Shown here: one piece after another, positions 55,967 through 62,277 of the stretch
How the letters are laid out: each line of letters starts with the position of its first letter
How positions within the stretch are numbered: position 1 is the first letter of the stretch
The notes under the pieces: model-generated
The model's input: the letters and a program-made list of their open reading frames with translations, nothing else
Database searches by the model: none
What the model was told of the DNA's origin: nothing
Program-made: the position numbers and the translations under genes
Assembly (NCBI GenBank): GCA_946408995.1
Contig: CAMJUL010000003.1
Coordinates: 1 to 64,000, forward strand
Length of the DNA: 64,000 nucleotides
Reading direction: 5' to 3'
Source of the DNA: an uncultured Clostridia bacterium
GTDB lineage: Bacteria; Bacillota; Clostridia; Christensenellales; Aristaeellaceae

Positions 55967-56043
55967 CTGGGTGTAGCGCAGCTTGGTAGCGTGCTTGAAT
56001 GGGGTTCAAGAGGCCGAGAGTTCAAATCTCTCCACCCAGACCA
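55967..56043 (+). tRNA. tRNA-Pro (GGG anticodon), CCA encoded; integration target of the element
   Basis: ctgggtg...cacccagacca; anticodon stem-loop cttga-atggggt-tcaag; T-loop gagagttcaaatctctc. Confidence 0.94.
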
Positions 56044-56067
56044 ACGCAAAAGCCTTGAAATCATTGG
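56021..56067 (+). repeat. attL: 47-bp direct repeat (tRNA-Pro 3' end plus terminator 5' arm)
   Basis: ttcaaatctctccacccagaccaacgcaaaagccttgaaatcattgg, identical to 62204-62250. Confidence 0.93.
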
Positions 56068-56114
56068 ATTTCGGGGCTTTTTTCTATGTGTAAAAAAGGC
56101 TTCCACCTCATTTT

Positions 56115-57329
56115 TTACCTCATTTGTGCCGCATAGCGTTGAATCGTCCCTTCCATGCGGTCAGCGGATGCGCGTTTTTCGTCCGAAAGGATATAGGCGT
56201 AGATGTTCATTGTGGTCGATAAGCAAGAATGTCCAAGCGCCGTTTGCACCGCTTTCGCGCTATCCCCGTTCTCAATGCACAGGGCCGTAAAAGCATGACG
56301 CAGTGAATGAAAATGCGCTTCCGGCACTCCGATTTCAGCAAAGATTTTTTTAATCTGCTTGCGGACGGAATTGTGGCAGAGATGCCCGCCGTACTCATTC
56401 GCAAAAATCAGGTCGTCAGGATTGCTCCATAGCTCCCCCGCTTTCATGCGCTGTTCTAATTGCCGTTTGCGCTCTTTTTCAAGCACCGCATTCATGGAAG
56501 CGGGAAGGCTCAGAATCCGTCTGGATTGTTTCGTCTTTAACGATTCAAGCCCATACGCTTTCTTGTTCCGATCGTATTGTAACTGTCTGTAAATTCGCAG
56601 CGTCATGCGCTCAGAATCCCAGCAGTCCCAGGAGAGACCCAGCAATTCCCCAATTCGCAGCCCCTCGAACAGCGCGAATTGAAAAAGGTTTTCCAGCGGA
56701 TGCCCAACACATGCAGACAGGAAAGCGCTAATCTCTTTGTTATCCATTACCCGGATTTCCGAGGATTGCTTGCCCGGAAGGATTTGTCTTTTACACTTGT
56801 CCATTGGGTTTACCGGGATCAAATTGTCTTGATATGCCCGTTTCAACAGCAGACCAAGCACAGAGGAAATGTCCCTCACCGTATGCGGGGAAAGGTCGCT
56901 CCGATTCAACGCCTTGTGAAAGTTGTCTATGTTTGCGGGAGTCAGTTTTTTTACTTTCACCTCTCCGAGCCGGGGCTTGATGTGAACACGGATAAACATT
57001 TCATACCTTGCGTATGAGTTTTGTTTCAGGCTTCCGTTGCTCACCCTTTCTGTTAACTCTTTAAGGTATTCGTCTGCCAACTCTCCAACGGTCGTTCCAC
57101 TCTTGCGAACGTCCGCAAAGGATTGACCATCACACCTTTTTTTAAGCGCTTCTGCCTTTGATTTGCACTCCGGCAGTGTCTTTCCGTAAACAGACTTGCG
57201 GACCGCGTTTCCCATGCCGTCACCAAGGGAGAGCATACATTTCCAAGTGCCGTCTGCCCGTTGTGAAAAAGACCCTTCGCCATTCAAGCGCCGTCCAGGC
57301 GTTTTTGTAGCATCTTTAGTTTTAGGCAT
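56115..57329 (-). CDS. Site-specific tyrosine recombinase (phage/ICE-type integrase)
   Basis: SAM-like N-terminal domain; GLRIGELLGLSWDCWD, HSLRHAFTALCIENGDSAKAVQTALGHSCLSTTMNIYAYI catalytic motifs. Confidence 0.95.
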   Translation of the reverse strand: MPKTKDATKTPGRRLNGEGSFSQRADGTWKCMLSLGDGMGNAVRKSVYGKTLPECKSKAEALKKRCDGQSFADVRKSGTTVGELADEYLKELTERVSNGSLKQNSYARYEMFIRVHIKPRLGEVKVKKLTPANIDNFHKALNRSDLSPHTVRDISSVLGLLLKRAYQDNLIPVNPMDKCKRQILPGKQSSEIRVMDNKEISAFLSACVGHPLENLFQFALFEGLRIGELLGLSWDCWDSERMTLRIYRQLQYDRNKKAYGLESLKTKQSRRILSLPASMNAVLEKERKRQLEQRMKAGELWSNPDDLIFANEYGGHLCHNSVRKQIKKIFAEIGVPEAHFHSLRHAFTALCIENGDSAKAVQTALGHSCLSTTMNIYAYILSDEKRASADRMEGTIQRYAAQMR

Positions 57330-57804
57330 TCGTTTTTCCTCTTTCCGTCAGATACTTTTGTTTCAGGTGTTCGCCCAGGCACATTGTGAAGAGAGCCACA
57401 GACGCAGCGGACATGTTTGCAACCTTCTCAGCCAAAGACGCAATTTCATCAATAGTTGCGTCCCCTTCCAGGCCGTAGAGGTCAACAGCTATGCGCTCAA
57501 TGTGGTTCTGAGCGGACCGCAAAACCGACGAATCAATTTCCTGTTTTTCCAAAGCCAAAGCGCAGTTTCCGAGAAGGTCTCTCAGACCGTACAACTCAGC
57601 CGTGACATCTTCCGTGTCGATTGCAGGATCACTTTTGATATCAGCAGCAATCCGCTTTAGGTACTTCTCTGCACCGTCCACCCCTTGCCAGTCTATTTTA
57701 TTCGATTCTGACATGAAACATGCCCAGTCGCTCAGACTCTCCGCAAGCACGGTCATCTCATCTGCAAGGTCTTTTTGACGTTTCGTCCTTTCCGCTTGTG
57801 TCAT
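57322..57804 (-). CDS. Hypothetical protein (160 aa, acidic, helical), coupled to integrase
   Basis: ORF overlapping the integrase start by 8 nt, same strand; SD aaggaggg-like sequence upstream (aggagggattacacg). Confidence 0.65.
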   Translation of the reverse strand: MTQAERTKRQKDLADEMTVLAESLSDWACFMSESNKIDWQGVDGAEKYLKRIAADIKSDPAIDTEDVTAELYGLRDLLGNCALALEKQEIDSSVLRSAQNHIERIAVDLYGLEGDATIDEIASLAEKVANMSAASVALFTMCLGEHLKQKYLTERGKTNA

Positions 57805-58143
57805 CGTGTAATCCCTCCTTACTCATCCTATCAGATTTCCGGGTCTATGTGGCGCTTGTAACATTTTCCGGGGGAACGTCCCCCCAGCAGCGCCCCGATA
57901 AAAACTCTCCATCCTCCTTTCTGAATCAAGAGACTATCCCAAAATCATATATTTGTCAACAGTGGATCAGCGCCGCCCGCTTTTTGCAGATGGATGAATA
58001 AAGGGTTACAACCCATTGCATTTTTCTATTTTGGTAAATACTGGAATTGTTACGAAGTCCCCAGGTGTTCCATTCACAAAAAAGGACAGATATAATAAAA
58101 ACCACCGTGACAAACGGAATAAATGCGCGAAAGGATCGAGAAC

Positions 58144-58365
58144 ATGAGCGAACAAAACAACACCCTCCCCCGCATGTTGGATGCCCGCCAGGTCATGAAG
58201 GAGTACGGTTTCAGCCGTCCATTGACCTACAAGTTGTTGAACAACCCCGCAGCAGGAGCCGTCCGCATAGGCCCCCGCCGTATCTACATGCAACGGGATA
58301 TGCTGGAGGAGTGGATCCGGCAGCAGTCCGAAGCCCAGCGGAGCGGAAGGGGGATTGACCGTTGA
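58144..58365 (+). CDS. AlpA/excisionase-like helix-turn-helix protein
   Basis: MLDARQVMKEYGFSRPLTYKLLNNPAAGAVRIGPRRIYMQRDMLEEWIRQQ. Confidence 0.7.
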   Translation: MSEQNNTLPRMLDARQVMKEYGFSRPLTYKLLNNPAAGAVRIGPRRIYMQRDMLEEWIRQQSEAQRSGRGIDR

Positions 58366-59138
58366 CCGAAACAGCCCAGGCCGAGGAAAAGATCCTTAAT
58401 GCGCTGGAGGTCCAGGGCATATCAGACAGCCCCGCAGTGAAAAAGCGTGTCCGTGAACTGTTGAGCCGCAGCACGTTTGAAACCGTGATGGGGTGGGTGT
58501 TCAGCAATCAGGCAGTATTCACCAGCACCACCAGCCCAGCGCCCGCCCCCACATGGTCACCTGCTCCGGCACGGACAGCAAACACCCCGAAGCCCTCCCC
58601 TGTCATCGTGGAAACCTCCACAGCAGATCAGACAACGGCCCGGACGGGGGGAGCGTATGAACCGCCAGATCCCAGCATTTCCAACTATATTGCGGCTTAT
58701 GCTTGCACATATAGCGAAAAAGAGCGTAATGGAATTAGGGCTAAACTCAAATATTCTCACTCTCTAGCACTCAAAACAGGCCGGGCTCTTTTCGGCAGTG
58801 CGGACAAAATGTCTTTTTCATGCCCCTTCTGTAAACAACCGGATGCAAGATGCACCATCAGCCCAGAAAGCCTAAGAACCTACTTTGTATGCTCTGCTTG
58901 CGGCTTTAAAGGGGATCTTGCAAATTACATCGGAAGGAGCGCAGGACGGACAGGGCGAACGGCCCAGGACTTTCTACCCGCCGAAGCAACAGCGGCCTTT
59001 CTGGATGATGATGCCTATCCCCCCGAATGGTATTCGGAATGGGAACAAACAAACCCCAAAGGGATGCCCAGCGAAAAGTTAGTCAGTTTGACTAATTTCT
59101 TGCGAGAAAAGTTGTGCGGTATTTTGCCAAGCAATTAA
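58362..59138 (+). CDS. DnaG/CHC2-type zinc-finger domain protein, no evident TOPRIM (replication-associated?)
   Basis: SCPFCKQPDARCTISPESLRTYFVCSACGFKGDLANYIG resembles the primase zinc-binding domain; TTG start overlapping the upstream stop. Confidence 0.55.
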   Translation: MTETAQAEEKILNALEVQGISDSPAVKKRVRELLSRSTFETVMGWVFSNQAVFTSTTSPAPAPTWSPAPARTANTPKPSPVIVETSTADQTTARTGGAYEPPDPSISNYIAAYACTYSEKERNGIRAKLKYSHSLALKTGRALFGSADKMSFSCPFCKQPDARCTISPESLRTYFVCSACGFKGDLANYIGRSAGRTGRTAQDFLPAEATAAFLDDDAYPPEWYSEWEQTNPKGMPSEKLVSLTNFLREKLCGILPSN

Positions 59139-59319
59139 AGGAGTTTTCCCATTTGTGCCGAATAGAATATTCTTTATATTCAACTTACTTGAAATATATG
59201 TATATTAATACTAGGAACTAGGAACTAGGATATACTTAGAACTATAACATTGTTAGTTATTAATATACAATGTTTGTTCCGGGGGAACCCTAGTTCCTAG
59301 TTTCCAAGGAGATGACCGC

Positions 59320-59556
59320 ATGACCGAAAAGGTATTCAGCACCCCCACCGGGAACGCCAGCGCCCAGGACAGACAGACGGCGCTTTTGCACCAGTACTCC
59401 CAGCTTTCCGAACGAGGACAGCTGAGCGTCCTTCTCATGGTCCGGGCCATAGCCCGTCAGGAAGAGCGGGAGCGGAAAAAGGCTCAGGATCAGGAGAAGC
59501 CGAAGCGGAAACGGAAAACGTCAGAACCGGAAAGGGAAATGACGTTTCTGGAGTAA
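59320..59556 (+). CDS. Small hypothetical protein (78 aa, highly charged C-terminus)
   Basis: ATG preceded by ccaaggagatgacc SD; MTEKVFSTPTGNASAQDRQTALLHQYSQLSERGQLSVLLMVRAIARQEE. Confidence 0.55.
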   Translation: MTEKVFSTPTGNASAQDRQTALLHQYSQLSERGQLSVLLMVRAIARQEERERKKAQDQEKPKRKRKTSEPEREMTFLE

Positions 59557-59634
59557 ATGGGACGGGGAGCCGTAAACGAGCGGTCCCCCGCTTTCTTTTT
59601 GCCCCTCAAAAGCAGAGCGCAAGACAGGAACCCC

Positions 59635-59658
59635 CGTTTTGTCAAATTTGACAAAACG
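59635..59658. repeat. 24-bp perfect palindrome
   Basis: cgttttgtcaaa|tttgacaaaacg. Confidence 0.9.
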
Positions 59659-59781
59659 ATATTGTCCCCGAGAGTGTTTCAATAGGGCATACTCCAATGA
59701 CATTCTGAAATGTTCTGGAAAAGTGTTTCACAGAGGTTCAAAAAAAATATTGCAATATGTCAAAATAATTACTATATCCTA

Positions 59782-59811
59782 TTGACACATTTCCTCTGTT
59801 TGGTGTAGAAT
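59782..59811 (+). promoter_or_regulatory. Promoter of serine recombinase
   Basis: TTGACA (59782-59787) - 18 bp - TAGAAT (59806-59811). Confidence 0.65.
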
Positions 59812-59841
59812 GATACCATCAAGCGAGAGGAGCGGAAGATC

Positions 59842-60435
59842 ATGGCGAACGTTGGATATATCCGGGTCAGCACCGAAGGCCAGAATACGGCAAGGCAGGA
59901 TTCCAAAGTCCGGGAGATGTGTGATAAAGTGTTTACGGAAAAGATTTCAGGGAAAAACACCAACCGCCCCGAGTTGCAGAAAATGTTGGAGTATGTTCGT
60001 GAGGGGGACACCGTGATAGTAGAAAGCTACAGCCGTTTCAGCCGGAACACCAAGGACCTGTTGGAGTTGGTATCCGAGTTGGAGGAAAAAGGCGTCGCTT
60101 TCATCTCACTCAAGGAGAATGTGGACACGACAACCCCACAGGGGAAACTGATCTTTACCGTGTTCGCGGGGCTTGCCCAGTTTGAGAGGGAGCAGACGTT
60201 GCAGAGGCAAGCAGAAGGAATTGCCGAAGCCAAACGGGAAGATGCCGCACTTAAAGCAGCAGGACAGCAAGCCAAGCACTATAAAGGCCGGAAGCCGATA
60301 GAGGTTGATTCAGGAGCGTTTGAGGCTGAATGCAGACGCTGGAGAGCAGGAGAGCAGACCGCCAAGGAGACAATGGAGCGTCTCAGTTTAAAACCAAATA
60401 CCTTTTACCGGAAGGTTAAAGAAGCGGGGATATAA
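59842..60435 (+). CDS. Serine recombinase (resolvase/invertase family)
   Basis: VGYIRVSTEGQNTARQ; VIVESYSRFSRNTKDLLELV; FTVFAGLAQFERE; C-terminal HTH. Confidence 0.93.
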   Translation: MANVGYIRVSTEGQNTARQDSKVREMCDKVFTEKISGKNTNRPELQKMLEYVREGDTVIVESYSRFSRNTKDLLELVSELEEKGVAFISLKENVDTTTPQGKLIFTVFAGLAQFEREQTLQRQAEGIAEAKREDAALKAAGQQAKHYKGRKPIEVDSGAFEAECRRWRAGEQTAKETMERLSLKPNTFYRKVKEAGI

Positions 60436-60549
60436 ACTCCGCTTTTTTCATGCTCTCCCCGCTGGAGGGACCGCAGGACCGGGGAACGGGAGCGGGAGCC
60501 AGGACCAGCCGGAAAGAGACGGTGTAATGTATTACAAAGTACCTTGTTA

Positions 60550-60578
60550 TTGACAATACAAGCAGGTTATGGTATAAT
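60550..60578 (+). promoter_or_regulatory. Perfect-consensus sigma70 promoter
   Basis: TTGACA - 17 bp - TATAAT. Confidence 0.85.
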
Positions 60579-60584
60579 GTTAGT

Positions 60585-60726
60585 TGAGCAGAGGCGCTCA
60601 CTGTTTGCCAAGGGGCCGATAATTCATCCTCTCCTGTTTTCCCTTTCGCAGCGCCGGGGAGCCGCTTCTCCCAAGCGCGGGGGCCGCCCGTGCGGACCGG
60701 ATCATACCGGGGGCGGCTCCCTTTTC
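60585..60726 (+). ncRNA. Candidate structured small RNA/leader within the element
   Basis: Downstream of the consensus promoter; hairpins tgagc-agaggc-gctca and gcgc-cggggag...ctccc-aagcgc; terminator-like gccgccc...gggcggctccctttt; no convincing coding ORF. Confidence 0.5.
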
Positions 60727-61082
60727 ATACCAGCCCCGTTTTTTATTCGCCGCAAAGAATTTTCCGGCTGTCTCCCCGGATGCAGTCCCCCAGGCGCATT
60801 TATTCCGTGTTGTGCACTCACAAGACGAAAGCGTCGCGAATTTCGCGTTTTTCCAGAGCACCCTATGAAACACACCACCCCGAAGGGAAGGCCGAATGTC
60901 GGCAGAATTTCCGCATGAACACAGGGCATTCCGAAAAACGCACAGAAACGCCCCTGTTTTCGTTTTTCCACAAAGCATGACCATTTTATCGTCCGAGAAT
61001 GACGAAAGCCCTTCTACCCCCTTAAAAATGCCAAATTTAGACATTTGAAAGTCAAAGTCAGTCAAAGAAAGGACAGTTCACT

Positions 61083-61331
61083 ATGCAAATGGACCTTACG
61101 CCCGCCGATTGGGCGATGTTGAAACGGATCATGTCAAACGGAATTTTCGTTTTGGACAGAACAAATAAAATCATCAGCAAGGACCGAACAGTCACCGCCG
61201 AGATTCCCAAGGAATTGTTTGACCAAGTGAAGAACATCCTCCAGCAGAGCGGATACCAACTGATAGACAGGGACTCTCACAAGCTGGAGGATATCACCGG
61301 GGGAGCAATTTCCAGGATGCTGGAGGTATAA
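61083..61331 (+). CDS. Small hypothetical protein (82 aa)
   Basis: MQMDLTPADWAMLKRIMSNGIFVLDRTNKIISKDRTVTAEIPKELFDQVKNILQQ; SD gaaaggac; followed closely by an HTH gene. Confidence 0.55.
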   Translation: MQMDLTPADWAMLKRIMSNGIFVLDRTNKIISKDRTVTAEIPKELFDQVKNILQQSGYQLIDRDSHKLEDITGGAISRMLEV

Positions 61332-61335
61332 GCCC

Positions 61336-61623
61336 TTGAAAACGTACAAGTTGCCGTCCGGGCCCGTTACGCTCTATGATACAGCGGATGCCGCCCGTAT
61401 GCTCCAGGTCTCTACCCGGACCGTCTGGAATTTGGTCCACCGTGGCAGGATCAGAGCCGAGAAAGTGGGCGGCTCAAAATGGATGTTTACCGAGTCAGCG
61501 CTTGCGGAGTATCTCCAGGGGAAAGCAGCCAAGCGCCCCAAGCAGATGCACCGCTACCACCGGGACGAAGAAGCATCAGAGGATGGACCCTTTATCCGGG
61601 AGAATGAGGAGACGCTTTTTTGA
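61336..61623 (+). CDS. Excisionase-family helix-turn-helix DNA-binding protein
   Basis: LYDTADAARMLQVSTRTVWNLVHRGRIRAEKVGGSKWMFTESALAEYLQG. Confidence 0.85.
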   Translation: MKTYKLPSGPVTLYDTADAARMLQVSTRTVWNLVHRGRIRAEKVGGSKWMFTESALAEYLQGKAAKRPKQMHRYHRDEEASEDGPFIRENEETLF

Positions 61624-61650
61624 TAGGCTCCCATCATACAAGCCGATTTT

Positions 61651-61679
61651 TGGCAAAACCTCATTTTGAGGTTTTGCCA
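61651..61679. repeat. Perfect 13-bp inverted repeat with 3-nt loop
   Basis: tggcaaaacctca-ttt-tgaggttttgcca. Confidence 0.9.
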
Positions 61680-61778
61680 CTCCTTCCCATCCCCGCCCGT
61701 ATGGAGCCGATGCTAAATATATCACGTCCGTTTGATAAATGTACAACCTCAAGTAAATGCAAGATATAACTCAATTCG

Positions 61779-61816
61779 CCGTAAACGCCATTTATTTGCC
61801 GTTTGACGGCTTTTTC
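61779..61816 (+). terminator. Terminator-like hairpin
   Basis: gccgtaaacg...cgtttgacggc then tttttccttttt. Confidence 0.5.
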
Positions 61817-62203
61817 CTTTTTAGTGTGCAGTTTATCGTCCGAGCATGGAAAAACGCAGGAAGCCCCCTTAAAATGGTAAATACAGCATAGTCCGAAAGA
61901 ACGAGGAGAAAAGACAAAATAGAAACGGTTAGAGATATTGAACTATGACGGGGACGGGAAGGAATTACCTACCGCCGTTTGTTCCAAACAAACTGAATCC
62001 TATGGAATTATTTGTCAGTGGAATTGGAAAAGAGTGGAAAGCATCCGCACATCATTTCCACCTCAATTTATACCTCAGTTACATAAAAAACGCATTTGAC
62101 GTGTTCACAAATAGTTGACTAATGGAAATGGGAGTCCTTGATTTTCAAGGGCTCCCTGTAAACATATCAGACGAAAAACACACAGAAAATGGTCTGCCGC
62201 TCT

Positions 62204-62250
62204 TTCAAATCTCTCCACCCAGACCAACGCAAAAGCCTTGAAATCATTGG
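62204..62250 (+). repeat. attR: 47-bp direct repeat
   Basis: Identical to 56021-56067. Confidence 0.93.
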
Positions 62251-62277
62251 GTTTCAAGGTTTTTTTGTATATAAAAG

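Follow-up and report, generated by a model that had tools for sequence, protein, structure and literature searches.

A candidate small non-coding RNA behind a consensus promoter in a tRNA-borne integrative element of an uncultured Clostridia bacterium

The window analyzed here, a 64,000-nucleotide stretch of DNA, contains at tRNA-Pro(GGG) a complete-looking 6.18-kb integrative element, predicted from a tyrosine integrase beside the tRNA gene and from direct repeats at both ends (Table 1). The first of these repeats begins inside the 3' end of the tRNA gene. Besides the integrase, a serine recombinase and the excisionase-family protein hth95, the element encodes an 80-aa HTH protein (hth80), a 258-aa protein bearing a zinc-ribbon-like motif, an ORF of 78 aa, and the orphan o82; a further orphan ORF of 160 aa (o160) overlaps the integrase start and is without a family match. 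Family searches recognized no relaxase or replication initiator among the element proteins tested, and no transfer, replication, or cargo genes were recognized in 56021-62270. The region of interest lies between the recombinase gene and o82, in a 647-bp non-coding gap of this compact element.

Several palindromic or repeated sequences were also observed. A perfect 24-bp palindrome without a T run lies upstream of the recombinase gene, a large imperfect palindrome whose 14-nt ends match perfectly lies 5' of the 78-aa ORF, and a 13-bp perfect inverted repeat without a strong T run is found just past hth95. A direct repeat, which includes 60982-61001 and 61829-61848, flanks o82-hth95, and its two copies are possible binding sites for an element protein.

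Table 1. Coordinates of the element, its genes, and the predicted features around the candidate RNA.
Feature	Position	Strand	Basis or detail
tRNA-Pro(GGG)	55967-56043		
Host element	56021-62270	.	flanked by direct repeats of 67 nt (56021-56087, 62204-62270) that are 93% identical and lie 6183 bp apart
Tyrosine integrase	56115-57329	-	in host element, adjoins tRNA-Pro(GGG)
o160, 160-aa orphan ORF	57322-57804		
Large imperfect palindrome, ends AACTAGGAACTAGG	59216-59302		
Palindrome CGTTTTGTCAAATTTGACAAAACG	59635-59658		
Serine recombinase (resolvase/invertase type)	59842-60435	+	upstream of RNA; own promoter 59782-59811
Imperfect dyad TGTAATGTATTACAAAGTACCTTGTTATTGACAATACA, putative operator	60523-60560	.	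shuffle score
Sigma-70/sigma-A consensus promoter TTGACA-17-TATAAT, extended -10 (TGGTATAAT)	60550-60578	+	12/12 match, weight matrix
Predicted non-coding RNA, ~140 nt (to ~60745 via second terminator)	60585-60725	+	fold, codon usage
Hairpin GCGCcgGGGAGccgcttCTCCCaaGCGC	60651-60678	+	-15.2 kcal/mol, z -1.85
T1, predicted terminator: 11-pair GC-rich stem (one G-U pair), small inner hairpin, then TTTTC	60679-60725	+	~-31 kcal/mol, tail score 2.68
T2, predicted terminator: alternative hairpin (60710-60738), then TTTTTT	60710-60744	+	-11.2 kcal/mol, tail score 4.76 (excellent)
Stretch complementary to hth80 leader/start region 58107-58128	60794-60817	+	22 pairs, two one-base bulges
T3, terminator-like: CGCGA-ATT-TCGCG, then TTTTT	60835-60852	+	sequence
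Direct repeat around TTTATCGTCCGAGNATG	60982-61036 and 61829-61882		
o82, orphan 82-aa ORF	61083-61331	+	downstream of RNA
hth95, HTH_17/excisionase-family DNA-binding protein	61336-61623	+	
Inverted repeat TGGCAAAACCTCA/TGAGGTTTTGCCA	61651-61679		

The exact sigma70 consensus that an earlier note had reported in this gap was borne out in full. TTGACA and TATAAT are separated by a 17-nt spacer, a TG lies one base 5' of the -10, and the site is the only one in the 64-kb window to match all 12 positions with a spacer of 16 to 18 nt (0.004 expected under a first-order Markov model). Its weight-matrix score, 19.2 bits, is the highest in the window, the next site in the element reaching 15.1. The accompanying statement that the element's other promoters are degenerate did not hold, the recombinase gene having an 11/12 site. 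An imperfect dyad overlaps the -35 and may be an operator, a weak assignment and suggestive only; its score was equalled by 27 of 1,000 shuffles.

Two open frames cross the region, one of 124 aa on the plus strand (60544-60918) and one of 155 aa on the minus strand (60598-61065). Codon usage, scored relative to the long genes of the window, gave -37 and -8 bits for these frames, compared with +18 for o82, +18 for hth95, and +33 for the recombinase. Because the crossing frames score negative while these three genes score positive, coding by either frame was rejected and the description of the stretch as non-coding stands. The frames are thus unconvincing, as had been claimed, although at 124 and 155 aa they are not short.

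The start of the RNA was placed near 60585, 6 to 8 nt past the -10. From there to 60725 the predicted fold has an energy of -64.0 kcal/mol and consists of serial hairpins: one at the 5' end (60585-60600), a loose one (60606-60650), the hairpin GCGCcgGGGAGccgcttCTCCCaaGCGC, and an 11-pair stem (60679-60721). The third of these directly abuts the stem, and the two together reach a z of -2.9. Over the whole interval, however, z was only -1.7, with 12 of 200 dinucleotide shuffles folding equally well, so that the impressive look of the structure owes part to its GC richness. The fold signal was lost in windows shifted off the promoter and terminator borders and is confined to the promoter-to-T1 interval. 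The earlier picture of ~140 nt of serial hairpins ending in a GC-rich stem and a T run is correct in its parts, the stem being followed by TTTTC, but the fold beats shuffled sequence only modestly.

T1 is a predicted terminator whose stem is very strong but whose U tract is poor. Its 3' arm is reused by T2, with 60710-60721 common to both hairpins, and because of this shared arm the two are mutually exclusive; at equilibrium T1 is favored, the pairs of T2 having a probability below 0.001. T1, T2, and T3 all precede o82, the next gene, which begins ~500 nt from the start site, and the candidate promoters listed between T3 and o82 score at most 8.2, versus 19.2 for the promoter at 60550. Such an arrangement would suit an sRNA gene with secure termination as well as an attenuated leader.

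Relatives of the RNA were sought widely. The Rfam search that the earlier note had proposed was run and returned nothing in the region above the gathering threshold, the best sub-threshold matches having E values of ~3. No relatives of the RNA or its surroundings were found in plasmid or phage records, nor by DNA search in 250 genomes of the family, 396 of the order, and 391 of the class. Two exact patterns matched no relative in viral contigs. A covariance model likewise retrieved no relative from 308 family genomes; as this model was built from one sequence entered twice, the family search used strict filters, and the searches were confined to the collections named here, the absence of relatives is limited evidence. 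The plasmid and phage records and the family, order, and class genomes thus yielded no homologous element and hence no alignment from which covariation could tell structure from chance. The short DNA matches that turned up in 13 family genomes were, among the stretches listed, mostly coding-looking; none shared the promoter-RNA-terminator layout, one locus (L008, in G209) having only a similar consensus promoter in common, and they were taken as chance. The covariance-model matches (L079, L080, and L049) were rejected because of their low scores, and L079 also fell inside a 398-aa frame. At another locus (L020), an exact promoter follows the recombinase, but on reading, the sequence there bore no resemblance to the candidate RNA.

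Most of the element's proteins appear to be orphans in the collections tried. For o82, the zinc-finger protein, the integrase, hth95, and o160, no useful relatives were found in the collections where each was searched; the one match to hth95, a weak one, came from a Listeria phage, and a match to o82 (L071) proved to be an open frame of 599 aa that resembles nothing in the element and was dismissed as chance. Close relatives of the recombinase occur in Clostridia (75% for L016 and 71% for L017). DNA similarity to these two loci ends at the recombinase stop codon, and therefore the RNA is not part of a recombinase module.

Pairing partners of the core RNA were not evident. No significant target was found, the best duplex, formed with a host gene, being about as strong as expected of the top-ranking one among 58 gene starts; none of the pairings with element gene starts was convincing, and unrestricted duplex energies over whole regions were uninformative. 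Farther downstream, the stretch 60794-60817 is complementary to the hth80 leader, with an energy of -28.9 kcal/mol for the isolated pair. For this part of the RNA the hth80 start ranks first among 58 gene starts, at an energy only ~2 sd below the mean. An inverted match of 15 nt somewhere in the sequence occurs in 10% of shuffled elements, and the complementarity is suggestive only. The stretch lies beyond T2 and would be part of the RNA only if transcription passes T1/T2.

We favor, at a rough probability of 0.42, an element-encoded small non-coding RNA of ~140 to 160 nt, terminated and regulatory. Sigma-A RNA polymerase would start near 60585 at the consensus promoter, the folded RNA would end at the overlapping T1/T2 (60725 or 60744), and residual read-through would be halted at T3 (60852). 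The RNA, possibly abundant, would most likely act in trans on element mRNAs and so set the level of mobility or regulatory genes. We prefer this reading because the strongest promoter of the 64 kb stands before a stretch with non-coding codon usage, because the fold signal is limited to the promoter-T1 stretch and two overlapping terminators and a third come before the next gene, and because 60794-60817, though beyond T2, pairs best with the hth80 leader among the gene starts tried. A promoter, non-coding character, terminators, and a location inside the element are all present; at the level of sequence, then, the locus has what an independent sRNA gene should have, namely its own promoter, an intrinsic terminator, and no ORF. 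Against it stand the lack of a homolog, covariation, or Rfam match in the searches above, the modest fold z, the poor U tract of T1, and the lack of a significant target within the core RNA.

A close rival, ranked next and held tentatively, is that the promoter at 60550 is an operon promoter and the RNA an attenuated or antiterminated leader of o82-hth95. T1, T2, and T3 would then stop most polymerases in the quiet element, and a signal or an RNA-based leader antiterminator would permit read-through to the excisionase-like gene; given the shared arm, T1 could serve as the anti-terminator of T2. The promoter and o82-hth95 have the same orientation, no good promoter lies between T3 and o82, and, as in an attenuator, mutually exclusive hairpins of which one is a terminator precede a co-directional gene. 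Tn916 carries terminators T1-T3 of its own and a cis-acting antiterminator RNA, canT, which was assayed in a 452-bp fragment, found by experiment to act in cis, and is required for expression of Tn916 genes (PMC11658703). Like the candidate, canT belongs to non-coding sequence of an integrative element from Gram-positive bacteria, is proposed to act as structured RNA, and lies amid terminators that block element genes (PMC11658703); unlike it, the candidate is a predicted RNA of ~140 to 160 nt, and the likeness drawn here is one of layout. A leader here would be ~500 nt long with several terminator-like hairpins, the equilibrium preference for T1 counts against this reading, and no match to a known leader or antiterminator family was found.

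It is rather unlikely that the region works as DNA, for example as an operator cluster, a transfer or replication origin, or a recombination site, with hairpins incidental to its GC richness. The long non-coding gap, the dyad over the -35, the repeats around o82-hth95, the palindromes at 59635-59658 and 61651-61679, and the modest fold z of 60585-60725 would all suit such a site, which nevertheless leaves an exact promoter with ordered terminators unexplained and for which no relaxase or replication initiator was recognized among the proteins tested. Slightly less probable is a transcript that runs to T3 (~268 nt) and, as an antisense RNA acting in trans, targets the leader of the element's own hth80-zinc-finger operon. 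The 22 pairs and their first rank among 58 gene starts point this way, but the complementarity was found after the fact, shuffled elements and the ~2-sd energy weaken it, the stretch sits behind T1 and T2, and the match might just as well reflect a protein-binding site present in repeated copies.

Plasmid copy-number antisense RNAs of the RNAI and CopA type are short and structured and lie behind a strong promoter on a mobile element, as does the candidate. Unlike in those systems, no gene with coding-like codon usage lies opposite the candidate RNA, the minus-strand frames failing on this measure, and family searches recognized no replication initiator among the proteins tested. Of the earlier proposal of a copy-number or regulatory RNA, or else a leader of the 61083-61623 genes, a predicted promoter-driven, non-coding, terminated stretch in the element is upheld, whereas the classical cis-antisense copy-number form is not supported. 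The put RNA of HK022 resembles the candidate in its compact hairpins near a promoter, but the last hairpin of the candidate is itself terminator-like. Nascent put RNA acts in cis to suppress termination of early phage genes (PMC9378689). Type I toxin-antitoxin RNAs of Clostridioides difficile mobile elements are likewise small regulatory RNAs carried in a Clostridia-type bacterium (PMC7699646). On unsystematic inspection of the candidate, no small hydrophobic toxin frame overlapping it or running opposite to it was noticed.

Most speculatively, and with a probability we consider very low, the locus could represent a new RNA family in an undescribed class of 6-kb integrative elements, its terminated form being an abundant sRNA and its read-through forms carrying the excisionase-like mRNA as well as a stretch antisense to the leader of hth80. 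If true, one promoter would govern both arms of the element's switch. Whichever of the sRNA and leader readings holds, it would add an example to a kind of regulation already known, since terminators and a cis-acting RNA antiterminator are known from Tn916 (PMC11658703). The candidate itself is an orphan, well delimited and testable, plausible and as yet unproven. Little has been charted of the regulatory RNAs that small tRNA-borne integrative elements carry in gut-type Clostridia, and, if real, this RNA would show how a 6-kb element without recognized transfer genes restrains its excisionase-like genes.
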